DNA of 29,472 nucleotides from a virus. The stretch lies in IMG/VR virus record IMGVR_UViG_3300005096_000060, positions 1 through 29,472 of that record. One strand, written 5' to 3'. The position numbers and the translations under genes were made by a program. The notes below the pieces were generated by a model. It worked only from the letters and a program-made list of their open reading frames with translations. It had not been told where the DNA came from and made no database searches. Shown here piece after piece: positions 6,629 through 22,483 of the stretch (position 1 is the stretch's first letter; every line of letters begins with the position of its first letter).

Positions 6629-6943
6629 CTACCTCTTCGGCTGCCACTCGACGTGGATGTGGTCCTCTTCGAGGATGACATCGAACTCCGGTCCCAGCCG
6701 CTCCGCCAGCTCGTCGCGGAGCGCCTGCCGGTAGCCGACGGGGATCCCGTGGATCCGGAGGTCCACGGCGAAGCCGGCGTAGTGCAGGGACGTCCGGCTG
6801 TGCCGACCCTCCGTCACCGACGTGACGGTCAGCTCCTGGGCCCCGTACTTCTCCCAGAGGGCCTGGGCCGTGACGATGGCGAGCACCACCTGGGGCTGGA
6901 TCCCCAGGAGCTGGACGTCCTCCTTGATCCGCAGGGGAATCAT
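6629..6943 (-). CDS. Endolysin, M15-type zinc peptidase (D,D- or L,D-carboxypeptidase-like)
   Basis: The 104-residue protein carries the M15 signature SLHYAGFAVDLR (residues 52-63), with His54 and Asp61 as likely zinc ligands. A C-terminal EEDHIHVEW (92-100) supplies a further His (H97) and acidic residues for the active site. M15 enzymes cut the peptide stems of peptidoglycan, and small stand-alone versions serve as phage endolysins. It has no signal peptide, so release would depend on the holin encoded at 9975-10523. The start overlaps the stop of the upstream basic-protein gene as ATGA. It is short but contains the complete motif set. Confidence 0.85.
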   Translation of the reverse strand: MIPLRIKEDVQLLGIQPQVVLAIVTAQALWEKYGAQELTVTSVTEGRHSRTSLHYAGFAVDLRIHGIPVGYRQALRDELAERLGPEFDVILEEDHIHVEWQPKR

Positions 6944-7167
6944 CGCTTCTTCCTCCGCTTCCTGGCCGCCGAGATCCGCCGGACGCGGGGCTTCGACTTC
7001 GTCGTGTTCCGGGAGAGACCGGCCTCCGACAGGGCGATGGCGATGGCCTGCTTGCGGTTCGTCACCTTCTGCCCCGAGGAGGAGCGGAGCTTCCCGACCT
7101 TGAACTCGTGCAGCACCCGGCGGACCTTGGCCCGCTTGCCCTTCTTCGTCTTCGCCCGGCTCCTCAT
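6940..7167 (-). CDS. Small basic protein, DUF6496-like
   Basis: This 75-residue protein is very rich in Lys and Arg at both ends. The centre, VLHEFKVGKLRSSSGQKVTN followed by RKQAIAIALSEAGLS, matches from memory the core of the DUF6496 family (HEFK, SSG-K, KQAIAIALSEA). That family occurs in bacteria and phages and has no established biochemical role. The ATG overlaps the stop of the upstream basic gene (ATGA), and the gene overlaps the endolysin start in the same way. The charge suggests nucleic-acid binding, which is inference. It is one of five basic genes in a row. Confidence 0.8.
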   Translation of the reverse strand: MRSRAKTKKGKRAKVRRVLHEFKVGKLRSSSGQKVTNRKQAIAIALSEAGLSRNTTKSKPRVRRISAARKRRKKR

Positions 7168-7652
7168 GACTTCTTCCTCCCCTTCTTCACCTTCTTCGCC
7201 AGCGTCCGACGGCGGCGCTGGACGGCCTCGGCGATCTCGCGGGTCCGGGAGCCGTAGCGTCCGGCGGGGGAGCGGGTGTCCTCGCGGGTGGGCATCGCCT
7301 TCGCCGCGTAGGAAGCCGCCCGCCGCTTCTTCGGCGTGGAGAGGTCCACCGGCTTCCTCTGCGCCGTCCGGGGCCCGGACGAGACCGCCTTCCGGAACCG
7401 CCCCTCCGCCGCCCTGGCGGTCCGGAGCATCGACATGGCGATCTTCCGGGAGGTCGCGGTCGTCAGGAGACGGGGGTCCAGACCGGCGGCGGAGGCCGCC
7501 CCACGGGGAACCTGCCCCCGCTTGAGCTGGGCGAGCTGGCGGTCCCGCTGGGACGGCGAGATCGACACCCAGTACTGCTCGAACTTCCGGAGCTGTGGGC
7601 GGATCGTCCGGCCGACCCGTCCGATGGTCGGCCGCTTCTTCTTCATCGCCAT
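7164..7652 (-). CDS. Arg/Lys-rich protein of unknown function
   Basis: The 162-residue protein is strongly basic throughout and ends in a Lys/Arg tail (KKVKKGRKKS). Visible motifs include FEQYWVSISPSQRDRQLAQL, possibly a small helical domain, and a central Ala/Arg-rich helix near AMSMLRTARAAEGRFRKAV. I see no Cys and few acidic residues. The start MAMKKKRP is placed at 7652, 2 bases after the stop of the 78-residue gene, within a GTGACGATGG initiation context used by three other genes here. I do not recognise the family. A nucleic-acid-binding or DNA-compacting role is possible from composition. Confidence 0.75.
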   Translation of the reverse strand: MAMKKKRPTIGRVGRTIRPQLRKFEQYWVSISPSQRDRQLAQLKRGQVPRGAASAAGLDPRLLTTATSRKIAMSMLRTARAAEGRFRKAVSSGPRTAQRKPVDLSTPKKRRAASYAAKAMPTREDTRSPAGRYGSRTREIAEAVQRRRRTLAKKVKKGRKKS

Positions 7653-7654
7653 CG

Positions 7655-7891
7655 TCACTTCCCCTTCTTCCGGGTCGTCCGCTTCCGGGTCGCCTTCTTC
7701 CGGCCCTTCTTCGGACGGAGCTTGTTGAGCGTCTTCGCCAGCGCGGCCTGCCGCTTCGTCCGCGTGGACGCCTTCACCCGCCCGGACAGCACCGCCGAGG
7801 CGTACTCGGAGACCGACATCCCGGCGGCCTTCGCCTTCTTCGTGAAGGCCCCGGGCCGCTTGATCGCCTTCTGGATCCACTTCTTGGCCAT
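7655..7891 (-). CDS. Small basic protein with WIQKAIKRPGA motif
   Basis: The 78-residue protein begins MAKKWIQKAIKRPGAFTKKA and contains RQAALAKTLNKLR before a Lys/Arg tail. This combination of WIQ-AI--PGA near the N-terminus and Q-ALAKTL towards the C-terminus recurs, as I recall, in small phage proteins of unknown function. About two fifths of the residues are basic. It starts with an AGGTGA site 8 bases after the preceding stop at 7900. It is the third of five consecutive basic genes. No enzymatic motif is visible. Confidence 0.8.
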   Translation of the reverse strand: MAKKWIQKAIKRPGAFTKKAKAAGMSVSEYASAVLSGRVKASTRTKRQAALAKTLNKLRPKKGRKKATRKRTTRKKGK

Positions 7892-7899
7892 GGGTCACC

Positions 7900-8193
7900 T
7901 CACTTCTTCCTCCGCTTCTTCGGCTTCGGCCACTTCTCCACTCTGGGGTTCCGGTACGGCCCCCGCTTGCGGGGCTTGACACCCTTCTTGCGGGTCTCTT
8001 CGAGGATCTCGTAGGTCCGCTCGCCGTAACCGGTGTTCACGACGCCACCCCGGCCGTACTTCTTCATCGCACCCGGGTTGAGGGTGGCGATCCGCTTCGC
8101 GGCGACCTGTCCCCGGTAGGTGTCGGAGATCGACCGCTTCTTCGCCGGGCGCTTCCGGGCCTTCTTCTTCGGAGCCTTCACCCGCTGCACCAT
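7900..8193 (-). CDS. Lys/Arg-rich protein with RIATLNP motif
   Basis: This 97-residue protein has a basic N-terminus (MVQRVKAPKKKARKRPAKK) and a basic C-terminus (KWPKPKKRRKK). The middle holds AAKRIATLNPGAMKKYGRG and a TGYGERTYEILEETRKKG helix. RIATLNP matches RIANLNP in the neighbouring 143-residue protein, so the two may be distant paralogues. I chose the ATG at 8193: it has a GGAGGG site, it starts 2 bases past the upstream stop, and the longer open frame upstream overlaps that gene. The function is unknown. Confidence 0.78.
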   Translation of the reverse strand: MVQRVKAPKKKARKRPAKKRSISDTYRGQVAAKRIATLNPGAMKKYGRGGVVNTGYGERTYEILEETRKKGVKPRKRGPYRNPRVEKWPKPKKRRKK

Positions 8194-8195
8194 CG

Positions 8196-8627
8196 TCACG
8201 CCCTCCGTGTCCGCTTGATGGGCTTCTTCCGCTTGGCCACCTTCCGGCTTGCCTTCTTCTTCACCACCCGCTTCTTCGCCACGACCTTCGTCGTCGTCTT
8301 CTTCTTGGAAATCTTCCCCGGCTTGCGCTTCTTGGGGGCCTTGTAGACCGCCTTCGGGTTCGGGGTGATGTCGTCCTCCTGCCCCGCCCTGTAGATGTTC
8401 GCGCGGACCCTGGGACCGTACCCCTTCCACCAGTTCTTGAAGGAGAGGGGCATCTTCTCCGGGTTCTCGGCGATGTCGGCGTTGGAGGGGCCGAGGAGCC
8501 GTGGCGCCAGGGTGCTCGCCTTCGCCCCCATCCTGCTGGCGGCCCGCACGTCCTTGGGGTTCAGGTTGGCGATTCGTTGGAGGGACCGCTTCTGGCGCGG
8601 AGTCAGCTTCTTCTTCTTCTGGGCCAT
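8196..8627 (-). CDS. Histone-tail-like Lys-rich protein with RIANLNP motif
   Basis: The 143-residue protein has a moderately structured N-terminal half (QKRSLQRIANLNPKDVRAAS, then SFKNWWKGYGPRVRANIYRA). Its C-terminal half (about residues 95-143) is low-complexity Lys/Arg/Val/Thr, similar in composition to bacterial histone H1-like tails. About one third of all residues are basic. A GAGGAGG site precedes the ATG. It is the first of five basic genes in transcription order. It could condense DNA, bind RNA or be packaged in the virion. No sequence motif decides between these, and the family is not recognised. Confidence 0.78.
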   Translation of the reverse strand: MAQKKKKLTPRQKRSLQRIANLNPKDVRAASRMGAKASTLAPRLLGPSNADIAENPEKMPLSFKNWWKGYGPRVRANIYRAGQEDDITPNPKAVYKAPKKRKPGKISKKKTTTKVVAKKRVVKKKASRKVAKRKKPIKRTRRA

Positions 8628-8827: not shown

Positions 8828-9085
8828 CTACCTCCTTTCCAGCCGGGCGGTGTTGCGTTCCACCGCCCGGACGAGCGTGTCCAGCTTGCGTTCGAGGTTG
8901 TCCAGCTTGTGGAGGATCTGCCGCTGGTCCTCGGTGTAGCGGGCGACCGGCAGGTACTTCTCGGCGACGGACGCCTGGGCCTGGAGTGTGCCGACCCGGA
9001 TGCCAACCATGAAGGAGGCCGCCGTCAGGACGACCATCACCACCGCCGGCCAGTTCCCGTTCAGTCCGCTGCTGCGCTGGGCCAT
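8828..9085 (-). CDS. Small membrane protein with TM and coiled coil (spanin- or antiholin-like candidate)
   Basis: The 85-residue product has one N-terminal membrane segment (about 12-32, PAVVMVVLTAASFMVGIRVG). A charged heptad-like helix follows to the end (DQRQILHKLDNLERKLDTLV). An N-terminal anchor with a coiled coil is the layout of inner-membrane spanin subunits, but it also occurs in unrelated small phage proteins. I chose MAQRSS at 9085 over the ATG at 9100, because the latter directly abuts the previous stop and lacks a good ribosome site. No outer-membrane lipoprotein partner with a clear lipobox is visible nearby. Confidence 0.65.
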   Translation of the reverse strand: MAQRSSGLNGNWPAVVMVVLTAASFMVGIRVGTLQAQASVAEKYLPVARYTEDQRQILHKLDNLERKLDTLVRAVERNTARLERR

Positions 9086-9100
9086 CGTCACTCTCTCCAT

Positions 9101-9496
9101 CTACTCTTCGCCACCGATGAAGTCGTCACGCGGGATGTACGGCTTCACCCTCTTCGGCTCGCCGAGCTTCGGCCGGCCTCCCATCCGCAGGAGCATCCCC
9201 TCCTTGTTCAGCTTCCGGAGGAAGACGACCTCCCAGTAGGGGCCGGTCAGGGTCCAACTGTCCTCGACTCCCCACATCCGCCGCAGTTCTGTGACGGGGA
9301 AGCCGTGGGACAGCAGGATCCCCACGGCTCGGTAGCCCTCCCCGGCATCGCCGTGAAAGCGGACGGTCGGCTCGGGGAAGGAGTGACCTTCCCCGCCCTC
9401 GCAGGACTCGAACGTCTCGACTCCGAACCTGTTCAGCAGCTCGACCGCCGGCCGGATCCCGGGATCGAGCTTCTCCGGGTCGTAGTTCAGGGACAT
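9101..9496 (-). CDS. Conserved phage-type protein with ESCEGGEGHSFPEPTVRF motif, unknown function
   Basis: The 131-residue soluble protein has a short N-terminal part (DPGIRPAVELLNRFGVETF). The motif ESCEGGEGHSFPEPTVRF follows, and I recall similar motifs in phage proteins of no known role. The Cys, His and acidic residues in the motif could bind metal, but no assigned catalytic set is seen. It overlaps the end of the exported Cys-rich gene by 10 bases. The ribosome site is a moderate AGAGG. Placement in the lysis/accessory region gives no firm clue. Confidence 0.75.
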   Translation of the reverse strand: MSLNYDPEKLDPGIRPAVELLNRFGVETFESCEGGEGHSFPEPTVRFHGDAGEGYRAVGILLSHGFPVTELRRMWGVEDSWTLTGPYWEVVFLRKLNKEGMLLRMGGRPKLGEPKRVKPYIPRDDFIGGEE

Positions 9497-9975
9497 GGTT
9501 CGTACCTCTCGGGCAGCCGTCGCCAGTCGGTGTCCGGCTGCCAGTCGTAGCAGGGTTTCTCACACTGGACCGCGTGGCCTCCCACGCAGTTCCCGTCGGA
9601 GTCACGGTTCAGACAGGGATCCCAGTCCCGGGCGTCCAGGCAGGCGTGGGGCAGGATCACGACCTGCTCGTCCGACCAGGGCGAGCAGCCGGCGTCGTTG
9701 CAGGCACGCACGACGAAGCCTTCTCCGGTGTTGATCTCGTCGCATGGCGTACCGGAGACGAGGTAGGACGTGGAGCCGACGACGGTGGCGCAGATGTCGT
9801 AGCTCCCGTCGCAGATGGCCGCGATCTCGTAGTACGTCGCCCCCGGGGAGGGATCCCACGCCAGCTCCTCGTTCCCGAGCACCCCGTCCACGTCGTCGGA
9901 GCACCAGTGGTCCAGGCAGCCCGCCCGGGCCGGCAGGACCGCGAGGAGCACGAGGAGCAGGACGAGGCGACGCAT
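9487..9975 (-). CDS. Exported Cys-rich protein with fibronectin-III-like segment
   Basis: The 162-residue protein starts MRRLVLLLVLLAVLPARA, a clear Sec signal peptide with cleavage expected near ARA/GC. The sequence ARAGC is not a good lipobox, so lipidation is doubtful. The mature part has 13 Cys, probably paired after export. A segment around YYEIAAICDG to FVVRACNDAGCSPWSDE resembles a fibronectin type III strand pattern. The start overlaps the holin stop as TGATG. A phage-coded secreted protein beside the holin could act in lysis, surface modification or superinfection exclusion; none is shown by the sequence. Confidence 0.72.
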   Translation of the reverse strand: MRRLVLLLVLLAVLPARAGCLDHWCSDDVDGVLGNEELAWDPSPGATYYEIAAICDGSYDICATVVGSTSYLVSGTPCDEINTGEGFVVRACNDAGCSPWSDEQVVILPHACLDARDWDPCLNRDSDGNCVGGHAVQCEKPCYDWQPDTDWRRLPERYEPCP

Positions 9976-10523
9976 CAGTCCTCCAGATCCACCGGCGGGG
10001 CCTTGGCCAGCGCCCGGGTCTTCTCCTTGGAGCCCAGCGAGGAGCCGAACCAGAAGGCCATGATCCGGGGCACCTCGCCCGTCAGGACGCCGAGGAGCGT
10101 GGTCGAGAGGCCGAGGACCCAGTCGGGCACCTCCCCGAGGGCCCCGGCCCGCAGGTGGGCGAAGAGGGCCCAGAGGATGGCGAAGTACCCGCCCACGAAG
10201 AGCGCCGAGAGGGTAACCTGCGGCCAGATGTTCACCTTGAACATCCGCCGGGCCGAGTCCCGGTCCTTCACCTCCAGCGCCGCGAGGTCGATGTCCAGCT
10301 TCCGCATCTCGGCCTGGAAGTTCCGGTCCAGCTCCCGCAGCTTGACCAGCACCTCCGGCCCCGACGTGAGGATCGCCTGCTCCACCTCCTCCGGCGAGGC
10401 GTCCGGCCTGCCGAGCACCTCCCGGGCGATGGTGGCCGTCGCCATCCCCGCCAGCGGCCCGCCGAGGGCCGTGGCGAGGGCGGGGGCGACCGAGGCGAGG
10501 ATCTTCTTCAGCCTAGGACGCAT
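9975..10523 (-). CDS. Holin, three-TM gene-transfer-agent-type family
   Basis: The 182-residue protein has hydrophobic segments at about 5-33, 98-124 and 132-160. The middle is a charged helix (LRELDRNFQAEMRKLDIDL), followed by KDRDSARRM. The C-terminal hallmark is VPRIMAFWFGSSLGSKEKTR, which I recognise from the 'holin of 3TMs, for gene-transfer release' family. Such holins permeabilise the inner membrane so that endolysin reaches the cell wall; here the likely partner is the M15 peptidase at 6629-6943. GGAGGAG precedes the ATG. The start overlaps the end of the upstream 93-residue gene by 11 bases. Confidence 0.85.
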   Translation of the reverse strand: MRPRLKKILASVAPALATALGGPLAGMATATIAREVLGRPDASPEEVEQAILTSGPEVLVKLRELDRNFQAEMRKLDIDLAALEVKDRDSARRMFKVNIWPQVTLSALFVGGYFAILWALFAHLRAGALGEVPDWVLGLSTTLLGVLTGEVPRIMAFWFGSSLGSKEKTRALAKAPPVDLED

Positions 10524-10794
10524 CGGACTTCTCCTCCTCCGGCAGCTCCAGCGGCTCCGGCGACGGCAGGTCCTCCGGCTTCGCGTCGCCGAGCAGCCGG
10601 AACGAGAGGGCGTCGTTCCCGAGCTGCTGGACGATGGCGTCCTTCAGCAGGATCACCAGCGGCTCGCCGAACCGGGAGGCCGGCACTGTGATCTGCACGG
10701 GGGACACGGACTCGATCGGCATCCCCTCGTCGGGACGCACGGCGATGTTGAAGGTGATGACGGCGTTGATCGGGTCGATCAGCTTCTGCTGCAT
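10513..10794 (-). CDS. Small acidic-tailed protein of unknown function
   Basis: The 93-residue protein is beta-strand-like in its first two thirds (INAVITFNIAVRP, SPVQITVPASRFGEPLVILL). It ends in a Pro/Glu-rich acidic tail (EPLELPEEEKSDAS). There is no signal peptide or TM segment. A GGAG-like site sits before the ATG, 10 bases from the preceding stop. I do not recognise the family. Its place between the exported LamG-like protein and the holin is compatible with a tail or lysis-regulatory role, without evidence for either. Confidence 0.68.
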   Translation of the reverse strand: MQQKLIDPINAVITFNIAVRPDEGMPIESVSPVQITVPASRFGEPLVILLKDAIVQQLGNDALSFRLLGDAKPEDLPSPEPLELPEEEKSDAS

Positions 10795-10804
10795 GGTTCG
10801 CTCC

Positions 10805-11842
10805 TTACCGCTGCACCGAGCTGGAGGGCTCGGCGATGAGCTGGACGTAGTCGATGTAGACGGTCTGGTCGGTCGGGGAGGCGTTCCCCGTCTCCGCCGT
10901 GAACGGCACGACGTAGTAGGCGGTCGTGGGATCGAAGTAGCTGGACGAGCAGGAACCGACGGAGGTGCCGTCCTTGTAGAAGGTCATCGTCGAGGACGAG
11001 TTGTCCCACTCGATGGTCCACCGGTGCCAGTTCTCGTCCACCGCCCACTGCGTCGAGAACTCGGCGTGCTTGCTCTCCGTGGTGGACTTGTAGCAGTAGA
11101 TTTGCCCGTAGGCCGGATCCGAGAAGGAGCCCGTGTTCGAGAGGAACTCGATCACGGCCGACTTGTTCCCGGAGCAGTCCCCGCCGGAGATGGAAGTGCA
11201 GAACCCGATGTGGGCCTGGATGTCCGCCGGGGCGGAGACGCCGGAGCCGTCCAGCTTGAGGACGACGTGGAGGGTCAGCTTCGAGTAGTTCCCCGGGACG
11301 ACCTGGAAGGGGCGGTCCTCCGAGGAGCCGGGACTGCGCAGCCCGCCGTCGTCGTTGTCCCCGAGGACGAACTTCACGATCCCCAGGTGCCCCTCGTCGC
11401 TGGTGGCCGCCACCGGGCCGAGGGAAGCCGAGGAGGAGGTGATCGACGAGGGGAGCCACCACCAGCGGAACCGGTCCGTCTCCACGAGCTGGGCGGTGGA
11501 CATGTTCGCGTTGGCGATGGAGTCCACCTGGAAGAAGTCGTCGTGGAGGAGCGGCTTCTGCCGGAGCTGGGCGGCCGTGGAGGCCCCGCTGATGCACTGC
11601 ATCTCCCCGCCGGCGTAGAAGCAGAGCTGCTCGTCGTCCGAGTCCACGCAGACGTCCCCCGTCTTCAGCTCCGGATCGGTCGTCGAGTCCCCGTCCACGT
11701 CCGTGCAGGAGGAGGCCGCCGGGACGGCTAGGTGCTGCCGGACTTGGAGCAGGCGGTAGGTCTTCCGGCTCTTCGCCGGCGAGTCGGCGAGGGTGGGGAG
11801 GAAGACGACGATCAGGGTGAGCAGGCTAACGAACATACGCAT
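10805..11842 (-). CDS. Exported LamG/concanavalin-like protein
   Basis: The 345-residue protein begins MRMFVSLLTLIVVFLPTLAD, a likely Sec signal peptide with cleavage near TLA/DS. A tail-fibre-like part with several Cys (to about residue 95) follows. The C-terminal two thirds are beta-rich with ENWHRWTIEWDNSSSTMTFY, FYKDGTSVGS and YIDYVQLIAEP. That pattern is typical of LamG/concanavalin jelly-roll domains, which bind glycans or act as structural modules. The ATG has a GGAGGG site and overlaps the preceding gene by 17 bases. A signal peptide on a protein next to the fibre genes is unusual for a virion component, since assembly occurs in the cytoplasm. Confidence 0.72.
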   Translation of the reverse strand: MRMFVSLLTLIVVFLPTLADSPAKSRKTYRLLQVRQHLAVPAASSCTDVDGDSTTDPELKTGDVCVDSDDEQLCFYAGGEMQCISGASTAAQLRQKPLLHDDFFQVDSIANANMSTAQLVETDRFRWWWLPSSITSSSASLGPVAATSDEGHLGIVKFVLGDNDDGGLRSPGSSEDRPFQVVPGNYSKLTLHVVLKLDGSGVSAPADIQAHIGFCTSISGGDCSGNKSAVIEFLSNTGSFSDPAYGQIYCYKSTTESKHAEFSTQWAVDENWHRWTIEWDNSSSTMTFYKDGTSVGSCSSSYFDPTTAYYVVPFTAETGNASPTDQTVYIDYVQLIAEPSSSVQR

Positions 11843-12407
11843 GGAAAACCCTCCTTCGGGTCACACCCCCGGTCGTGTACTCCACCGTGAGGACCGGCCA
11901 GTAGGACGTCGAGGAGCTGTCCACCGAGTGGCAGGAGAGGAAGTAGTACTGACCGTCGATGGACGGCGTGCCGGGATAGCGCCAGCAGATGTCCGTGTTA
12001 CCCGTCGTGGAGACGGCCGACGTCGGAACGGCGATGTCCACCTTCGTCGGCGACGAGCTGGACGTCGAGACGCTGGAGGAGTTCACGGACCCCATGTACG
12101 TCATCGAGACGTAGTCGCCCCAGTCACTGGTGGACAGCGGCGTGGAGAACTTGTTCGGCCCGGCGTAGAAGTAGAAGGTTCCAGTCAACCCCGAACGGTA
12201 GGCGTAGATCGTCAGGGTCGCCGAGGTGACGGTCACCCCGGAGCCGAGGGACGAAGTGTCGAACCCAAGGTAGCCCCGCCACTCGTAGACCGTCCCCGAC
12301 CAGCGGCTCTTCCCACCATCGACGTGGGTCGCCGTCGTGTCCACGGACACGCCGTTCAGGATGTACCCCTCCCGGTTCGTGGTCGGGTTGACGGTCAGGG
12401 TAGCCAT
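11826..12407 (-). CDS. DNRLRE-like carbohydrate-binding virion protein
   Basis: The 193-residue beta-rich protein contains RGYLGFDTSSLGSGVTVTSA with TLTIYAYR. This is the characteristic pattern (L-FD-S-l-----V-SA-L-l--) of DNRLRE/CBM-like jelly-roll domains that often bind polysaccharide. Ser/Thr-rich linkers follow, and the C-terminus is basic (GVTRRRVFHAYVR). The start overlaps the fibre stop as TGATG, so translation is likely coupled to the fibre. A role as a fibre-tip or accessory receptor-binding protein is inferred from the domain pattern and adjacency. Confidence 0.72.
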   Translation of the reverse strand: MATLTVNPTTNREGYILNGVSVDTTATHVDGGKSRWSGTVYEWRGYLGFDTSSLGSGVTVTSATLTIYAYRSGLTGTFYFYAGPNKFSTPLSTSDWGDYVSMTYMGSVNSSSVSTSSSSPTKVDIAVPTSAVSTTGNTDICWRYPGTPSIDGQYYFLSCHSVDSSSTSYWPVLTVEYTTGGVTRRRVFHAYVR

Positions 12408-15400
12408 CAGTCGCCCTCCGAGGAGCTGGCGTCCTTGATGGTGTAGTAGACGGTGATGGAAAACTCATCGACCGTCCCGGATACTGTCGAGATGTCCAAC
12501 CAGAGGAACGCCTGCCGGGAGAGTATCCTGTTGACCATCCCCCCGTGGTTCTGGGCCGTCGAGGTGTTGGCAGTCTGGTCGGTGGACCACAGGGAGTACG
12601 GGGAGGAGGACGCCCGGTCCGTGCTCCACTTCAGGTTGAAGTTGACAGACGGGGTGGACGATCCCCGAACGCACGTCTTGACGGCCCGGATGTAGATGCG
12701 GTCCTCGGTCTCCAGGAGGGTGATCGAGTCCCCGGACTGCGGGTCGAGCACGGAAACCGTGAGCTGCTTGTAGGCGACGTAGACGGTGCCGCCCTGCTGG
12801 ATGACCCGGTCTCCCGTCCAGCCCCTCGTGTTCACCTGCCCGATCCGCAGGCAGATCGAGCCCGTGTTGGCCGGGGCGGCGGTCGCCGACGAGGAGATGT
12901 CCTTGATCCGCGTGTCCGAGGCCGCCGAGGCGTCGATGGTGCCGGAGGAATCGACCGTCACCGTCCCGGTGACCGACGTGGACCCGGAGATCGAGGCGGA
13001 CGAGATCGAGGGAGACGAGAGGGTCTTGTTCGTCAGCGTCTGGGTGTCGCTGGTGCCGACCACGTCGCCGGTGACCCCGTGGATCCCGGACGAGGCCGCG
13101 ATGTGCGAGTCGATGGCCGCGTGGTCGTTCGTTCCGGCCCCCGAGAGGTTCTGGTGGACGATCTTCGTCTCGTCCAGGGTGAAGAGGGCGTTGTCCCCGT
13201 GGGTGGCGTCGTCGTTCGTGACGGCGATGGTCAGCCGGTCGTTGGCCGATCGGAGCTTGAAGGTGTCGCTCCCCGAGGCCGTCGCGGTGGTGGTGCCGTC
13301 CGTGATCGAGGCGTAGGCGTCCGACAGCCCGCCTCCGGCCGAGGAATCGACGTAGGCCTTGGTGGCCGCGTCCTGGGCGTTCACCGGGTCCGAGACGTTC
13401 TCGATCCGCCGGGAGGCCACGTCGATGGTCGATCCGATGGCGAAGTCGTAGTCCGTCGCCGAGGTCGGGGCGCTCGCCGAGAAGCGGAGGACGCCGGAGG
13501 TCGCCCAGACGTGGCCGGTGTTGAGCTGGAGGTGGCCGGTGTTCCAGTCCCCGCCGGCCAGGTAGACGTTCCCCTTCGTCGCCGAGGAGAAGGACTGGGA
13601 GTCCACCTTGATCGCGTGGCCGTCGCCGGGCTGGGTGGAGGAGGTGGACGAGACGCCCATGTCCTCGATGAGGAGCCCGGTCAGCGAGGAGATCGTGCCC
13701 GTGGAGGAGATGTCCGGCTGGAACGCCCGGAAGAGCACGGCCTCCGTGATGGTCGCCGAGTCGGCGACCCAGACCTTCGCCTCGACGGTGTGGGAAGCGT
13801 CGTAGGTGTTGGAGGAACCGCACTGGACGCCGGCCCGCAGGCCGATGGCGAGCCCGATCTGGGCCGAGGTGGCCGCTCCTTCCGTCTGGACGGCCGCCAC
13901 CATTCCGCGCAGCTCCGTCTTGGTCTCCGTGACGTTCGCCGCCAGCGTCCCGAAGCCGGCGACGCCCGTGAGACCGCGCCCGTCGGCGGAGCCGCCCGTC
14001 AGGGATGCCTCCGCCTTGATGGCGTCGGGGTAGGTGACGTCCGACCGGTCGCAGTCGAACTGGACCTTGATCCCGTAGCGGAAGTTGTTGATGTCCGAGC
14101 CTTCCGACTGGGTCAGGCCGACGAAGACCTTCCCGTAGGGGCTCGTGGAGTCCTTCCAGCCTACCGTCACGCGATCGAGGGCCTGGTCCGCGATGTGGAC
14201 GTGGCCGAGGGTCGCCCCGGCGGTCGAGCGCAGGACCAGGTCCTCCGAGTCCGCCGAACCGCCGTGCAGCGTCTGGCCCCCGGAACGGCCCGCCAGCAGG
14301 GCGTACTGCGGGTGGTCGTCGTCGGAGAGGCCACCGAGGGAACCGTGGTCCGTGACGACGGTGGCATCGACGTAGGCCTTCGTCGCGGCGTCCTGGGCGT
14401 CGGTGGGATCGACCAGGTTCACCCCCCGCCGGGAGTGGAAGTCCACGGTCGAGGCGAGGACCGAGAAATCCGCATCCGTCGAGGACGTCGGCTCCGTGCG
14501 GGAGAGGTGGATGTCCCCCGAGGTCGCCCACAGGTGGGCCGCCCCGAACTGGAAGTGGCCCGTGTTCCAGTCGCCCCCCGCCATCCGGATGTTCCCGGAG
14601 AGCCCGTCGAAGCCCGTGTCCTGCGCGTCCACGAGGATCGCGTCGCAGGAGTCCCGTGCGCTCGCCCCGAGATCCCCGATGTGCAGGCCCCGGATGTCGT
14701 TGATCCCGGCGGCGATGATGTCCGGCACCGCCGCCTCGAAGGCGTTGTAGGTCTGGATCTTCCCGGAGCCGTAGACCGCCGCGATGGCATGGAACCCGTA
14801 GGCGGTGGTGTAGTTCCCGGTGTTCGAGACCTCCACCCGCGAGGTCACGCCGATCGCCTCGGTGGCCGTCGGGCTGTTCGAGCCGGCGACGGAGACGTAG
14901 GCGTAGAGCCCCCGGGCGAGGGTGGCGGCGACGGAGTCCTGGAACTGGGCGTTCACGAACAGCGCCGAGCCGCTGACGCCCTTGAACAGCCGCTGGACGA
15001 CGGAGAGGGCATAGGGGTAGGTCTCGCCGTTCTTGACGTACTGGGCGACGTGCAGGACCGCGTTCGGGTTGTTCGGCCCCTCCTGGTCCTCCGCGCTGAT
15101 GAAGAAGCGCCCCGAGTAGACGTTGCTGGAGACGTAGGGGTCGTACTCGTAGTTCCCCACCACCAGCCGGCCGGCCGTGTTCGGCTCCAGCCAGAGGGTC
15201 CCCGGCGTGGCGTTCGAGGAGGACTGGAGGACCAGGTTCTCCGAGGCCCCCGTGCCCCCGTACAGCGTCTGCCCGCCCGAGCGGCCGGCGAGGAGCGCAT
15301 ACTGGGTGTGGTCGTCGTCCGAGAGGCCCGAGATGGAGCCGTGGTCGATCCCCGACTGGTCGAGCCCGAGGGTCAGCGTGTCCCCGCCGTCGAAGTTGCC

Positions 15401-15730
15401 GGGGTGATTGTTGACCGTCTTCGTCAGCGGCGCATCGACCAGCAGCTTGTCATCGAGGTACCCGGACTCCTGGTCGTCGTCGTCGATGAGGACCTGCCCC
15501 GCGCCGGCGGAGATCGCCTCCCGCGAGGAGGGGAAGATGAACCGCTCGTGGCCGATGCGGATGACGATCTTCCCGACCGGGTTCGCCGCGTCCGAGGTGT
15601 CCTTCCAGAAGACGACCTCGCGGTCCCCGACCGAGGGGATCGAGTTCCCGGCGACGATCTTGAACTGGAGCGGGACGCGGCGGAGCAGGTCGTCCAGCAG
15701 GTGCTCGTTCGCGTCCACCCGGCGGGGCAT
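12407..15730 (-). CDS. Tail fibre/spike protein with two tandem modules
   Basis: The 1107-residue protein contains GLSDDDHTQYALLAGRSGGQ (about residue 135) and a second copy with DDDHPQY (about 464). DDH-QY and DAATKAYVD are typical of phage tail fibres. Two modules of about 330 residues are visible: each has the DDDH-QY start, a central beta-rich region, GGDWNTGH (about 385 and 723) and a terminal DAQDAATKAYVD (or VNAQDAATKAYVD). The C-terminal 300 residues differ and end acidic (SSSEGD). The N-terminal 100 residues probably attach to the tail. The protein should carry receptor recognition. The 'GG-T/S' pattern suggests beta-helical trimers. Confidence 0.9.
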   Translation of the reverse strand: MPRRVDANEHLLDDLLRRVPLQFKIVAGNSIPSVGDREVVFWKDTSDAANPVGKIVIRIGHERFIFPSSREAISAGAGQVLIDDDDQESGYLDDKLLVDAPLTKTVNNHPGNFDGGDTLTLGLDQSGIDHGSISGLSDDDHTQYALLAGRSGGQTLYGGTGASENLVLQSSSNATPGTLWLEPNTAGRLVVGNYEYDPYVSSNVYSGRFFISAEDQEGPNNPNAVLHVAQYVKNGETYPYALSVVQRLFKGVSGSALFVNAQFQDSVAATLARGLYAYVSVAGSNSPTATEAIGVTSRVEVSNTGNYTTAYGFHAIAAVYGSGKIQTYNAFEAAVPDIIAAGINDIRGLHIGDLGASARDSCDAILVDAQDTGFDGLSGNIRMAGGDWNTGHFQFGAAHLWATSGDIHLSRTEPTSSTDADFSVLASTVDFHSRRGVNLVDPTDAQDAATKAYVDATVVTDHGSLGGLSDDDHPQYALLAGRSGGQTLHGGSADSEDLVLRSTAGATLGHVHIADQALDRVTVGWKDSTSPYGKVFVGLTQSEGSDINNFRYGIKVQFDCDRSDVTYPDAIKAEASLTGGSADGRGLTGVAGFGTLAANVTETKTELRGMVAAVQTEGAATSAQIGLAIGLRAGVQCGSSNTYDASHTVEAKVWVADSATITEAVLFRAFQPDISSTGTISSLTGLLIEDMGVSSTSSTQPGDGHAIKVDSQSFSSATKGNVYLAGGDWNTGHLQLNTGHVWATSGVLRFSASAPTSATDYDFAIGSTIDVASRRIENVSDPVNAQDAATKAYVDSSAGGGLSDAYASITDGTTTATASGSDTFKLRSANDRLTIAVTNDDATHGDNALFTLDETKIVHQNLSGAGTNDHAAIDSHIAASSGIHGVTGDVVGTSDTQTLTNKTLSSPSISSASISGSTSVTGTVTVDSSGTIDASAASDTRIKDISSSATAAPANTGSICLRIGQVNTRGWTGDRVIQQGGTVYVAYKQLTVSVLDPQSGDSITLLETEDRIYIRAVKTCVRGSSTPSVNFNLKWSTDRASSSPYSLWSTDQTANTSTAQNHGGMVNRILSRQAFLWLDISTVSGTVDEFSITVYYTIKDASSSEGD

Positions 15731-16355: not shown

Positions 16356-17147
16356 TCAGATCCTCACCGTGTAGGTCGTCGCCCCGGCCACGTTCACGTT
16401 GGCGCTGCGGGAGACCTCCATCGGGATGGCCCCGCCGTCGAGGACCCGGTGCAGCCGGGCGTCGGCGGCCTTCGCGCCGGACACGGCCGTCTGGAAGTCG
16501 GTCCAGAAGGCGGCAACGACGGCCGGGTTGTCCCGATACCGCTGCTTCACCAGGAAGAACTCGCCGCCGGCGATCAGGGCCTCCCGGGACTCGGGGGTGA
16601 GGAAGAGGGTGTCCTGCGAGGTGAACGTGGCGATCCGGCGGAAGTAGGGCAGCTCGATCCGCTTGACGGTGTCCCCGTCGATCGGCGGCCAGACGTAGAC
16701 GGTGCCGTCCTCCGGGGACCGGACGGAGAGCATCTTCGGCGTCCCGGACTGGGAGTCCGTGTTCCGGGTGGTGTAGGCGCGGAAGACGTGCCACGGGGTC
16801 CACGAGGGCTCCGCCAGCACGTTGCCGTCCTCGTCGTAGATGAGCCCGCCACGGGCCGGCCAGGCCCAGTCGTCGGGCAGCGTGAGGGTCTGCGCGTCGT
16901 CCCCGAACTCGTCGTCGGAGGACGGGGAGGCCGCGTAGGTCCAGGTGTGCTGGCTCCGGGCGGCGAACCAGATGCCCCGGGCGTTCATCCGCGCGGCGGC
17001 CCGGACGAGGGCCGAGAGGGCCCGGCTCCGGACCTTGGGATCGTCGGGCTGGCCGAGAAGGGCGGCGACCTCCGAGACGAGGGCGTCTACCGGCTCAAGG
17101 TCCGGAGTCTGGCTCTCCGGTGGCGTCGGCGTCAGGCGATCCGGCAT
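16356..17147 (-). CDS. Head-tail adaptor / tail tubular A-like protein candidate
   Basis: The 263-residue protein has an N-terminal helical part with ALSALVRAAARMNARGIWF and FAARSQHTWTYA. A strand region follows with LTLPDDWAWPARGGLIYDED and GTPKMLSVRSPEDGTVYVWP, then KRIELPYFRRI. This order, helices then 'LP-D', 'P--y', 'v-P-p-d', 'i-L-Y-r', is typical of adaptor proteins connecting portal and nozzle in short-tailed phages. GGAGG stands 9 bases before the ATG. The start overlaps the GT4 gene by 53 bases. The assignment comes from the strand pattern and the position before the fibre. Confidence 0.65.
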   Translation of the reverse strand: MPDRLTPTPPESQTPDLEPVDALVSEVAALLGQPDDPKVRSRALSALVRAAARMNARGIWFAARSQHTWTYAASPSSDDEFGDDAQTLTLPDDWAWPARGGLIYDEDGNVLAEPSWTPWHVFRAYTTRNTDSQSGTPKMLSVRSPEDGTVYVWPPIDGDTVKRIELPYFRRIATFTSQDTLFLTPESREALIAGGEFFLVKQRYRDNPAVVAAFWTDFQTAVSGAKAADARLHRVLDGGAIPMEVSRSANVNVAGATTYTVRI

Positions 17148-18243
17148 GGGGCAGCGCCTCCGCCATCTCTACGGACTCGATCCGTGGACGGCTGCGAACA
17201 TCCTCGATTACATCTTCCCACAAGGGTGCCGCCCTTGCCACCGTTCCCACGTCCAGCACGAACTCGCGGGCCCGCTTCGCCGCGCGCCGCAGGGGTCCCG
17301 GGTCCCGGACCGCCTCCCGCAGGAAGTCGTACCAGGCATCCGGATCGTTGGGGAGGGTGAAGAAGGCGTCGGAGGGGAGATCGCGGTACGGACCCACCCG
17401 TGACCCGAGGAACGGAACCCCCTGGATCCCCGCCTCCAACGCCTTGATGGCCGACTTGGCCTCGTTGAACGGGTGCTCCGCCAGCGGGGCGATGGCGAGG
17501 TCGAACCCGCCCCAGGCGACGGCCGCCGGGTAGTCCCGGAACGGGACCCAGCGACAGAGGATCACCCGGGCCGGGTGCCGCCGGCGGAGGTCGTGCAGCC
17601 ACTTCGGGATCGTCCCGAAGCAGATCAGCCGCACCGGGGCGGGCGGGTCGAGGAGGAACCGCTCCAGCCCGGTGCGGACAACGTCGAGGTCCCCGTAGTG
17701 CCCGGAGGCCCCGCCGTAGAAGATCCGGAAGGCCGGGTCGGCCTCCCGCTCGGGGTTGACGGGGTGCCCCTCCCAGTCGGCCGGGTCGAGCACGTTCGGC
17801 ACGACCCGGATGGCATGGGACTTCGGACGGAACCGGTCGGCGAGCGTGGAGGTGGTGACGGTCGTCATCTCCGCCCACATCATGTGCCAGGTGGCGGCGT
17901 TCCACGCGGCCTGACCGGGGTTGTAGTCCCCCCGGGCGAGGTTCCACGGGGGGACGTTCGTGAAGTCGTCGTCGTAGTCCACCACCATCCGCCCGTCCGG
18001 CATCAGGTGGCGGAGACCGACGAGGAGGCCCAGCCTCCGGGGGTCCACCTCCCGGTCCACGAGCAGCACGTCGTGGCGGGCGGCGACCTCCCGGATCCAG
18101 TCCTCAAGCTGCGGGCGCTTGAACCACGGGTGCTCCTCCTGCCACGTCACCTCGTGCCCCGCCCGGGCGAGGGCGCGAGCGGGGATCCACTGGCGGTAGT
18201 ACCCCACCGCCGACTGCTGCCTGTGCAGGACGAGCACCCTCAT
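17095..18243 (-). CDS. Glycosyltransferase, GT4-like (GT-B fold)
   Basis: The 382-residue protein starts with a Rossmann strand (MRVLVLHRQQSAVGYYRQW). It has VVPNVLD (147-153), FYGGASGHYGDL (about 175-186) and a C-terminal FNEAKSAIKALEAGIQGVPF (about 259-278). These are the standard GT-B/GT4 landmarks for nucleotide-sugar binding. The enzymes transfer a sugar from an activated donor, but donor and acceptor are not readable here. Its start lies 3 bases past the 74-residue gene's stop. It belongs to a block of three glycosyltransferases within virion genes, suggesting modification of virion protein, host surface or phage DNA. The C-terminus is acidic and Pro/Asp-rich. Confidence 0.85.
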   Translation of the reverse strand: MRVLVLHRQQSAVGYYRQWIPARALARAGHEVTWQEEHPWFKRPQLEDWIREVAARHDVLLVDREVDPRRLGLLVGLRHLMPDGRMVVDYDDDFTNVPPWNLARGDYNPGQAAWNAATWHMMWAEMTTVTTSTLADRFRPKSHAIRVVPNVLDPADWEGHPVNPEREADPAFRIFYGGASGHYGDLDVVRTGLERFLLDPPAPVRLICFGTIPKWLHDLRRRHPARVILCRWVPFRDYPAAVAWGGFDLAIAPLAEHPFNEAKSAIKALEAGIQGVPFLGSRVGPYRDLPSDAFFTLPNDPDAWYDFLREAVRDPGPLRRAAKRAREFVLDVGTVARAAPLWEDVIEDVRSRPRIESVEMAEALPHAGSPDADATGEPDSGP

Positions 18244-18246
18244 GGA

Positions 18247-18471
18247 TCAGCCCTTCTTGCCGGAACCGGCCTTCTCCTGCTCCTCCCGGAGGGCCTTCTC
18301 GTACTCGCCGGCCTTCCACCGGAGCCGGTACTCCATCTCCTTCACCTTCTCCGACCAGTTGGCGGTCTTCTCCTCGATCTTCTCCCGGAGCTTCTCCAGC
18401 TTGACGGCGGTGCGCTGGACCTCCTTGAGGAGCTGCTTCAGCGCGGCCTTCGAGGTGACCTTCTTGCTCAT
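18247..18471 (-). CDS. Small coiled-coil protein
   Basis: The 74-residue protein is almost entirely charged helix, with a heptad-like KLEKLREKIEEKTANWSEKV and a Lys-rich C-terminus. It starts by ATGA overlap with the upstream unknown gene, preceded by AGGAGGA. There is no TM segment or Cys. Lying inside the glycosyltransferase block, it could be a subunit or scaffold for these enzymes, but nothing in the sequence proves it. The family is not recognised. Confidence 0.7.
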   Translation of the reverse strand: MSKKVTSKAALKQLLKEVQRTAVKLEKLREKIEEKTANWSEKVKEMEYRLRWKAGEYEKALREEQEKAGSGKKG

Positions 18472-19061
18472 GTCTCGTCCTCCTCTCCCGCAGCCGGGGA
18501 GGCTGCGGTCAGTTCCCTGATGATCTCGATCGGCTCCTCCGCCAGGACCGTGGCGGCCCGGGCGAAGTGGTTGAACCGGAGCAGGGACTCCGGCGTGAAG
18601 AACGGATGCCCCTCCGGCGTGGCGAGCTGGCGGTAGAGCGGGTCGAAGGAGGCCCCGAGGCTGGCGACGAAGCCGGACTTCCGGACCCGCAGGCCCCGGT
18701 GGATCCGGACCCTGGCCCGGTTGATCCCCTCCAGCGTGTCGAGGTCGAAGAGGTCCCACGGGGCCATGAAGGTGGGAACGAAGCCCCGGTCGATGGCCGC
18801 GAGGACCCGCTCCTCCGTCTGGTCCGCCGTCCACGAGAGGCACTCGCCGGGATGCCCGTCCCAGCCGAGGATCCCCACGTCGAGCCAGTGCGGACGGTCA
18901 TGGACGGAGCCGACGACGTCCGGCGCGAGGTAGGCCGTCACGCGGAGATCCTCCACCTGCGCGTGCAGCGGGGCGAAGAACTCCACCACGCGGGCCAGCG
19001 AGGACCCGCCGATCGTGTAGATGGCGATCGGCTTCAGGACCACGTCCTTGGGTTGATCCAT
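18468..19061 (-). CDS. Unrecognised gene in glycosyltransferase block
   Basis: The 197-residue protein starts MDQPKDVVLKPIAIYTIGGSS. Visible features are a first strand (IAIYTIGGSS), LRVTAYLAPDVVGSV, WLDVGILGWDGHPGECLSW, and FVPTFMAPWDLFDLDTLEGI. The N-terminal strand and following alternation look like an alpha/beta fold, and the Asp/Trp-rich segments resemble sugar or nucleotide-handling enzymes. No defining motif is present. The upstream GT2 gene ends at 19034, so the two overlap by 28 bases. An alternative ATG lies at 19073. A role in the same glycan pathway is inferred from position only. Confidence 0.68.
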   Translation of the reverse strand: MDQPKDVVLKPIAIYTIGGSSLARVVEFFAPLHAQVEDLRVTAYLAPDVVGSVHDRPHWLDVGILGWDGHPGECLSWTADQTEERVLAAIDRGFVPTFMAPWDLFDLDTLEGINRARVRIHRGLRVRKSGFVASLGASFDPLYRQLATPEGHPFFTPESLLRFNHFARAATVLAEEPIEIIRELTAASPAAGEEDET

Positions 19062-19771
19062 GGCCAGTACCATCCCATCCGCCGGACGTGCGCGGCCTCC
19101 GGCGAGTCCTTGGCTTCGAGGTCGTCCGTGCGGTGGACGACCCGGATGTTGGGGAAACGGACCAGCAGCCCGCCCACGCGCCGGCACCAGATGGCGATCG
19201 CCTCCGGGTCGCCCCGCCCGATGGCCTCGTCCAGCGGGGGCTCGAAGCCGTCGAGCAGGCGGACCGGGTGGAGGCGGCAGACGCCCCCGAGCAGTTCCAT
19301 GAGCTGGGCCTGGTAGGGCTGCCCCTTCTCCAGCACGGCCCGGATCTTCGGCTGGTTCCGCAGGCCGATCACCTTCGGGGCGACCACCAGCCGGTCCACC
19401 GGGTCGCCGGCACGGGCCCGGAGGTCGAGGGTCTGCTGGATCAGCTTCTTCAGCCACCGCTTGGTCTTGAACCGCACGTCGTCGTCGAGCCGGAGGAGCC
19501 AGCGGTAGCCTCCCTGCCGCGCCAGCGCCAGGGCCTCGGCGAAGGCGTGGTGCTGGCCCCGGTTCTCCGGCCACGCGACGAGGTGCTGGATCCCGGCCTC
19601 CGCCTCCAGCGCCGCCTTGGCCACGGCGTGCTGGCGGGCGGAGACCCCCGAGAGGACCACCAAGTAGCCCGCCGTGCCCCGGGCCAGCCGGATCGTGTCG
19701 GCGAGGAAGGGCCGGTCCCCGTGGGTGACCGTGAAGGCGAGCACCCGGCCGGTCGCTTCGGGCAGGCTCAT
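19034..19771 (-). CDS. Glycosyltransferase, GT2-like (second of pair)
   Basis: The 245-residue protein has a GT-A fold layout: VLAFTVTHGDRPFLADTI at the start, an Asn/Gln-rich PENRGQHHAFAEALALA, then RWLLRLDDDVRF with the DDD metal motif (96-98). After that come KVIGLRNQPKI and a C-terminal region with RVVHRTDDLE. This family uses nucleotide-sugars and a divalent metal at the Asp motif. The start overlaps the end of the first GT2 gene as ATGA. A purine-rich AAGGGG lies upstream, inside the previous gene's EKGTGR codons. Acceptor unknown. Confidence 0.82.
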   Translation of the reverse strand: MSLPEATGRVLAFTVTHGDRPFLADTIRLARGTAGYLVVLSGVSARQHAVAKAALEAEAGIQHLVAWPENRGQHHAFAEALALARQGGYRWLLRLDDDVRFKTKRWLKKLIQQTLDLRARAGDPVDRLVVAPKVIGLRNQPKIRAVLEKGQPYQAQLMELLGGVCRLHPVRLLDGFEPPLDEAIGRGDPEAIAIWCRRVGGLLVRFPNIRVVHRTDDLEAKDSPEAAHVRRMGWYWPWINPRTWS

Positions 19772-20547
19772 CGGCCGGTCCCCTTCTCGTTGCGGGAGAG
19801 GAGGTCCTCCACGACGGTCTCCGGCATGGAGAGGACCTCCGGCTTCCGCGTGAGCTGGATGTTCTCCCCGTGCCAGTGGTAGATGTTCGTCGCCGCGTCC
19901 ACGGCGGCCCCCGGGGCCCCGATCAGCGCCAGCCGCCGGGCCATGTCCCAGTCGCCGAAGCGCCGGAGCTCCGGGCTGAAGAAGGCCCCCGTCTCCTTCG
20001 CCAGCCAGTAGAGCGTGCCCTTCCCGATCAGCAGGTCGCCGGAGTCGATGAAGTTGTGGGAGGGTCCGTTCAGCAGCCGGGCGATGGCCTCCGAGTTCCA
20101 CGGGACGAAGGGGCTCTCCCCGAGGGCCGGGGGCTCCCCCTCGAAGCCGGGGTCCGCGACGTAGCGCCGGCGGCTGTAGGCGAAGGCCGGGCGGGCGTCC
20201 TGCTCCCGGACGGCCCGGACGAGGTTCAGCAGGTGGTCCGGGGCGAACTCGTTGTCCGCGTCCATGAAGGCGATCCACGGGGTGGCGACGTGGGGAATCG
20301 CCCGGTTGCAGGGGACCGCGTAGTAGCCCGTCGGCTCCGGCTGGACGACGACGTGACCCCGCACCTTCCCCAGCGTCGGCTCGATCGCCTCGTTCAGCTC
20401 CCGCTCGTCGGGCTGACCGTCGAACAGGATGAAGACGAGGAAGTCCCGGAACTCCTGCTCGGCGAGGGAAGCGAGGGCGCGAGGGAGGAAGCGGGTGTAG
20501 GCCGGATGGGCCCGCAGGATGACGGTGACGGTCTCGCTGACCAGCAT
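19768..20547 (-). CDS. Glycosyltransferase, GT2 family
   Basis: The 259-residue protein is a classical GT2: TVTVILRAHPAYTRFLPRAL strand-loop-helix, an ALASLAEQEFRDF helix, WIAFMDADNEFAPDHL with the D-A-D metal motif (96-98), and GDWDMARRLALIG (198-210) where GT2 enzymes carry their ED-D-like acceptor-base segment. It should transfer a sugar from a nucleotide donor; the product is unknown. GGAG precedes the ATG. The last residues are EKGTGR, which also end two small proteins upstream. It is cytoplasmic with no TM segment, unlike many polysaccharide GT2 enzymes. Confidence 0.87.
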   Translation of the reverse strand: MLVSETVTVILRAHPAYTRFLPRALASLAEQEFRDFLVFILFDGQPDERELNEAIEPTLGKVRGHVVVQPEPTGYYAVPCNRAIPHVATPWIAFMDADNEFAPDHLLNLVRAVREQDARPAFAYSRRRYVADPGFEGEPPALGESPFVPWNSEAIARLLNGPSHNFIDSGDLLIGKGTLYWLAKETGAFFSPELRRFGDWDMARRLALIGAPGAAVDAATNIYHWHGENIQLTRKPEVLSMPETVVEDLLSRNEKGTGR

Positions 20548-21452: not shown

Positions 21453-22483
21453 CTAGTGCATGGACAGGGCGTGGGTGAACCACCACAGCCGCTTGTCGGC
21501 GGCCGGGGCGGCGACGACGCCGTAGTAGACCTTCACGGCGAGCGTCCCCTTCATGTTCGCCGGGTCGTTGGTCCCGGCGGACCCCGGCGGGTGGTGGATC
21601 ACGCTGACGCCACCGCCCTCCTGGGTGATGACGTAGAAGGCGTCCGGCGCGACGACGTAGGCGTGGCAGCCGGTGACGCCGGTGGAGGCGGTCGCCGACA
21701 GGAGGCCATCGGCGGCACCGCGATGGCGACGATCGGCAGGTTGTTGGTCTGCACGAACCGGATGCCGTACAGCCGCCCGACCTCGCCCCGGTAGATGGGA
21801 CCCGGGTCGGTGTACTTCGCCACGTCGAGGAAGCCCGTGGCGGCGGTGTCGGTCATCAGGTCGTACATCGCCAGCGGGTGAACGACGCAGACGAAGGTCT
21901 CGTCCTCCCATCGGGGCACGTTGTACGAGTCCATCAGCGGACCGATCTTGGCGACGGACGCGCCGTCGATGTAGTCGGTGGACGTGACGTGCCCGTTGGC
22001 GTTGGTGGACCCGGTCTCGTTCGAGGAGCCCACGGAGGAAATCTGCGTCCGGGTGTGGGTGTCCAGCTTCCAGACGAGGTCCTTGACGAGGTTCTCGGTG
22101 GCACCGTCCGTCAGGGAGGCGTGGGACACGAGCACGGACTTCTCGGTGTAGGCGATCGCACCGACGAAGATGGAGACGTCGCCGGAGATCGACTCCGCCG
22201 AGATCAGGCCGGTCGTGATGGACGCGCTCTCGTGGACGGTCGTCACGGTGGCGTAGGTCGTCGCCGAGGGGTTGGGGTAGCTCGACCGGATGAAGTACGG
22301 CGACTTCCAGCGCGGGATCTTCACCGTCTCGTAGCCGCGCGGGACGGTGACCTCGGTGCCGAGCTGGCGGAAGTAGAGGGACGACCAGAGGCGGTCCCTC
22401 ATGAAGTCCGCGTAGAACTTCGGGATCAGCGGACCACCGGGGCCTCCGAGGCCGCCGGCAGAGGTGCTGGTGGTGATGGCCAT
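21453..22483 (-). CDS. Major capsid protein, N4-gp56-like, interrupted by a frame change
   Basis: The first frame starts MAITTSTSAGGLGG at 22483 with GGAGG. It contains FYADFMRDRLWSSLYFRQLG, VVHPLAMYDLM (201-210) and IYRGEVGRLYGIRFVQTNN (230-248), a pattern I recognise from N4-gp56-family HK97-fold capsid proteins. Coding continues after about residue 259 in another frame (GLLSATASTGVTGCHAYVV) to the stop at 21453. One re-read base near 21707, or one missing base, restores a 343-residue protein. The scaffold gene lies upstream. The uninterrupted first frame alone would replace the last 84 residues with an unrelated Pro/Ser/Arg tail, likely nonfunctional. No classic heptamer slippery site is visible. 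Confidence 0.85.

Follow-up and report, generated by a model that had tools for sequence, protein, structure and literature searches.

Two predicted proteins with hydrophobic N-termini, one lectin-like and the other very rich in cysteine, lie among the fibre and lysis genes of a virus. The locus raises the question of whether the two proteins leave the host cytoplasm and, if so, where and to what end they would act. The window, that is the whole stretch of DNA analysed here, is the linear IMG/VR record IMGVR_UViG_3300005096_000060 (29,472 bases, 69% GC, genes on the minus strand). Its gene content identifies it as a tailed phage: it encodes a terminase (phrog_38 match, E 4e-52), an SU10-type portal (E 2.5e-20), a capsid protein, an SLT internal virion protein and a fibre. 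A close relative was sought in the phage collection and none was found; the 66.8-kb IMG/VR record IMGVR_UViG_3300028908_000009 has syntenic counterparts of almost all window genes and is referred to below as the relative.

Gene neighbourhood and conservation

All window genes described in this section are on the minus strand. The tail fibre gene (12407-15730; T7-type fibre N-terminal domain match, phrog_1640) and the gene of the lectin-like protein (10805-11842; 345 aa, 8 Cys) are separated by a gene for a 193-aa protein without a signal peptide (11826-12407; 85% identical in the relative). A 93-aa protein of no family (10513-10794) is encoded between the lectin gene and that of a phrog_1544 membrane protein, a holin candidate (9975-10523), whose stop overlaps the start of the gene for the 13-Cys protein (9487-9975; 162 aa). 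An Rz-like (i-spanin-like) single-TM coiled-coil protein (8828-9100; weak PHROG match, E 0.0029) and an M15-type peptidase, the endolysin candidate (6629-6943), follow. The peptidase gene's own matches are weak, and those of its counterpart in the relative (HH_signal, E 0.0018; Peptidase_M15_3, E 0.037) are both below the Pfam cut-offs. The placement of the pair next to fibre and lysis genes, as given in the initial annotation, is thus borne out.

The order of the lectin and 13-Cys genes is the same in the relative. Across the block from the fibre to the 13-Cys protein, identity between the two phages is mostly 73-91%, with the 93-aa gene (65%) as the exception, whereas the capsid protein, at 63%, is less conserved than most of this block, which suggests that the lectin and 13-Cys genes travel with the host-contact module. 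The dN/dS values against the relative are ~0.35 for the two genes, 0.33 for the fibre and 0.19 for the holin-type gene, and by this measure both genes are under purifying selection. That the relative has kept the pair implies that the genes matter to the phage. Two stretches nearby are more changeable. The gene after the 13-Cys protein (9101-9496) is replaced in the relative by an unrelated one (L002:9014-9274), so this is a variable slot among conserved genes, and of the small Lys/Arg-rich basic proteins encoded from the lysis genes to the M15-type peptidase (6940-8627) the relative keeps only some.

Predicted export of both proteins

A strong Shine-Dalgarno sequence precedes each start. The lectin-like protein has AAGGAGGGTTTTCC-ATG, with GGAGGGTTTTCC-ATG in the relative; the 13-Cys protein has GGAGGACTG-ATG, which overlaps the stop codon of the holin-like gene before it. 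The lectin-like protein begins with MRMFVSLLTLIVVFLPTLA|DSP, where residues 1-19 (11786-11842, minus strand) form the predicted Sec signal peptide with a likely cut at TLA|DSP. The 13-Cys protein begins with MRRLVLLLVLLAVLPARA|GC, its signal peptide region (9919-9975, minus strand) ending in ARA|GC, and the relative has the lipobox VLAG|C in the same place. By a 12-residue Kyte-Doolittle measure applied to 31 genes of the window, the pair has the two most hydrophobic N-termini (3.03 and 3.28), followed by the Rz-like membrane protein (2.44). A crude signal-peptide rule (positive n-region, uncharged h-region, small residues at -3 and -1) was passed, among SD-preceded starts on the coding strand, by the pair and the Rz-like protein only; on the other strand it picked one weaker, spurious ORF among 104 starts. 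The predicted Sec/SPase I pattern is found by this rule in both proteins of both phages.

The pair are also the two most cysteine-rich of the 31 proteins, with 2.3% in the lectin-like protein and 8.0% in the 13-Cys protein, compared with 0.47% elsewhere (Fisher p 4.5e-4 and 8.6e-12, respectively). All 8 cysteines of the former and 12 of the 13 of the latter are conserved in the relative. The signal-peptide residues are 56-61% identical to those of the relative, against 76-79% in the mature parts, yet they have stayed hydrophobic; when the sequences were mutated at random to the same distance, that level was kept in ~7% and ~4% of runs (p about 0.07 and 0.04), which gives modest support to an export signal. 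At the predicted cleavage regions, PTLADSPAKSR of the lectin-like protein is identical in the relative, as is AGC of the 13-Cys protein. Taken together, the signal peptides, the cysteine content and the conservation of both in the relative make Sec export into an oxidising compartment the best reading for both proteins. The prediction of two Sec signal peptides and the expectation of export made from it in the initial annotation are therefore well supported at the sequence level. In the relative there is a further Cys-rich protein that looks exported, the third of its kind (L091:7644-8222; 192 aa, 6 Cys, predicted signal peptide MKYGAIIATLFLLLAPIAQA); it adjoins replication-type genes and has no family match.

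Predicted domain structure of the lectin-like protein

The lectin-like protein, 77% identical to its counterpart in the relative, consists of an N-terminal module with four cysteines (at 46, 65, 74 and 83), for which no family match was found, and a predicted jelly roll at ~150-341 with the other four. The structure model is of low confidence (mean pLDDT 45). Its best fold match is the CRD of Emp47p (Z 12.6, 174 residues aligned, rmsd 3.4), and the other top matches (Z 11-12.6) are galectins, ERGIC-53, legume lectins and a GH16-type glucanase. BFVD matches include viral ConA-like proteins, and several of the best are phage fibre or virion proteins. The model thus points, with low confidence, to a ConA-like jelly roll, and the earlier description of the protein as LamG-like appears right at the level of the fold. 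Assignment to the Pfam L-type lectins (PF18483) was rejected: the match (E 3.5e-4) covers the C-terminal part only and scores 20.9 bits against a gathering score of 78.3. Glycoside hydrolase family 16, whose Pfam match was also below the cut-off, was rejected because the catalytic ExDxE motif is absent from both copies, and this absence makes glycan binding likelier than cutting. In another virus, an SO2946-like lectin without a signal peptide is encoded directly before a member of the same holin family, phrog_1544 (L004:7204-8001); a search of the phage collection with this lectin gave no match.

Predicted domain structure of the 13-Cys protein

The 13-Cys protein (73% identical in the relative) comprises an FN3-like domain (~37-106) and a Cys-rich C-terminal tail (110-162), for which no match was found. 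FN3tt is the first PDB match by sequence profile (E 0.0013) and also by Foldseek (E 0.017), and its Z score against the model (mean pLDDT 48) is weak, at 4.5. Residues ~37-106 thus look like a fibronectin type III domain, although the Pfam fn3 threshold is not reached. The LAGC of the relative conforms to the lipobox rule [LVI][ASTVI][GAS]C, whereas the RAGC of the window breaks it, and ARA|G of the window copy is a fair signal peptidase I site. Each copy has 13 cysteines, so that 12 are left to pair if the first is lipidated, which hints that the protein may be a lipoprotein.

Distribution of the pair

Neither protein had a homologue in single-protein scans of IMG/VR or in tblastn of the phage collection, pair-profile scans of IMG/VR recovered the known relative only, and the same scans of GTDB genomes returned nothing, as did PADLOC and NCBIfam. 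One match to the 13-Cys profile (L008) was discarded as chance, being LDHWCSDD within an unrelated gene of a 148-kb virus. Across IMG/VR, GTDB and the phage collection, the pair is carried by two genomes only, the window and its relative. A survey of 83 loci with the phrog_1544 family likewise found the lectin and the 13-Cys protein together in this lineage only, and no further homologue of either; the signal-peptide rule picked mostly short or spurious ORFs in these loci, and we claim no rate from it. A literature search on secreted phage lectins found nothing relevant.

Probable host and destination of the exported proteins

Members of the phrog_1544 family directly follow endolysins in other phages, a GH108 protein in Rhodoferax phage P26218 and an M15-type peptidase in Vibrio phage 1.275.O, and for this reason we regard the window protein as a holin candidate. 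Isolated carriers of the family with a named host all infect Gram-negative bacteria. This holin-type family, known from Vibrio and Rhodoferax phages, together with the Rz-like protein, makes a Gram-negative host most likely. In Gram-negative cells, Sec delivers its products to the periplasm; the pair would thus be periplasmic or, if it carries lipid, attached to the periplasmic side of the outer membrane, and would become exposed only through lysis or some additional step. The initial annotation had gone on from export to a role on the surface of the infected cell (receptor masking, release from surface glycans, or altering neighbours). That step is not well supported, as an outward-facing role would need lysis or another step, and for the 13-Cys protein a role in lysis seems at least as natural.

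Possible roles of the pair

Tentatively, we favour the reading that the two are a Sec-exported, disulfide-stabilised pair made late in infection, in which the lectin limits the capture of progeny and the FN3-like protein is its membrane-held partner. From their position, both genes would be expressed late, with the fibre and lysis genes; the signal peptides would carry the products to the periplasm, where the cysteines could form disulfides. The 345-aa ConA-like lectin would wait there in soluble form and, once the envelope opens, could bind glycans of the host envelope or surface, as its fold suggests. The likeliest payoff, in our view, would be that fewer progeny are captured, through their fibres, by the host cell or by debris from it. 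The 162-aa FN3-like protein would be kept at the membrane, where a lipid on its first mature cysteine may hold it, and would act beside the lectin or in lysis. Of the roles considered, the binding of envelope glycans late in infection and during lysis is the likeliest. A bolder form of this proposal, in which a fibre-type lectin has become a secreted protein, locked by disulfides, that covers the glycans recognised by the phage's own fibres, with a membrane-held FN3 partner, so that progeny are left untrapped at lysis, we regard as improbable; if it were true, progeny would escape trapping on debris or on infected neighbours. To our knowledge, the exported phage proteins known to date are mostly small lysis or exclusion proteins. 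A conserved secreted lectin encoded between fibre and holin would exemplify phage control of glycans beyond the cytoplasm as infection ends.

Both proteins could instead be periplasmic parts of the lysis cassette, which we consider rather unlikely for the pair as a whole. The 13-Cys gene overlaps the holin-type gene, whose family directly follows endolysins in other phages, and the Rz-like protein, itself weakly matched, is encoded two genes on. As in two-component spanins (lambda Rz/Rz1, T4 PseT.3/PseT.2), the 13-Cys protein thus sits in a lysis cassette near an Rz-like protein; the copy of the relative has a lipoprotein-like N-terminus with a canonical lipobox, and 12 cysteines are left in both copies once a lipidated one is set aside. 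However, the window copy breaks the lipobox rule, and no o-spanin family match was found. Moreover, the FN3-like domain is unlike Rz1, and known o-spanins have at most 4 periplasmic cysteines in a survey of 526 (PMC6139136), against 12 here in addition to the first one and to a predicted FN3-like domain, which weighs against the 13-Cys protein as an ordinary o-spanin. The standalone SH3 protein of a Drexlerviridae lysis module (KanT1, PMC13164509) has a different fold from either member of the pair, and the accessible portion of that source describes no export signal for it, whereas the pair has predicted signal peptides.

Superinfection exclusion or receptor blocking in the style of T5 Llp or T1 Cor, with an exported lipoprotein or lectin disabling the receptor, is unlikely. 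Like those proteins, the pair would be Sec-exported and act in the host envelope; it adjoins the fibre gene, and the 13-Cys copy of the relative has a canonical lipobox. Llp, a lipoprotein of the outer membrane on its periplasmic side, jams FhuA (PMC9586334). Nevertheless, such exclusion proteins are early products (PMC9586334, PMC13164509), whereas the pair lies in the presumed late fibre and lysis block. It also differs in its far more numerous cysteines and its FN3-like domain; neither the lectin nor the window copy of the 13-Cys protein has a lipobox, and neither protein gave a sequence match to a known exclusion protein.

Alternatively, the lectin might mature in the periplasm and attach to virions at lysis as an accessory tip of the fibre, which we hold to be unlikely. 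ConA-like domains of phage fibres (SO2946-like, LamG-type) are usually virion parts, and the lectin-like protein shares with them the predicted jelly-roll fold and a position beside the fibre gene. The fibre and virion proteins among its best BFVD matches and the lectin before the same holin family in the other virus are consistent with such a role, and by eye the GDVCVDSDDEQLCFY module may resemble the GELAVNT-type hairpin of fibres. On the other hand, tailed phages assemble in the cytoplasm, no fibre-docking domain was found in the lectin-like protein, and BLASTP detects no similarity between it and the lectin of the other virus, which lacks a signal peptide, whereas here there are a predicted signal peptide and 8 conserved cysteines. 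That both signals remain uncleaved and anchor the proteins on the inner membrane, facing the periplasm, is very improbable: h-regions of ~14 residues might serve as anchors, but the h-region has diverged from that of the relative, whereas the small residues and the proline at the expected cleavage point have been kept.

Two further observations concern the structural gene region. The capsid protein frame (21453-22483) is broken near 21700, with the C-terminal part in another frame; the gene of the relative is fully open, and the break is probably a sequence error. Between the capsid and tail genes (17095-20547) there are three to four glycosyltransferase-like genes, 37-68% identical in the relative, with matches to phrog_7162 (E 3e-28) and GT2 (E 2e-12 and 1e-3) and a 200-aa neighbour, and from these matches a function in virion or surface glycosylation is possible.
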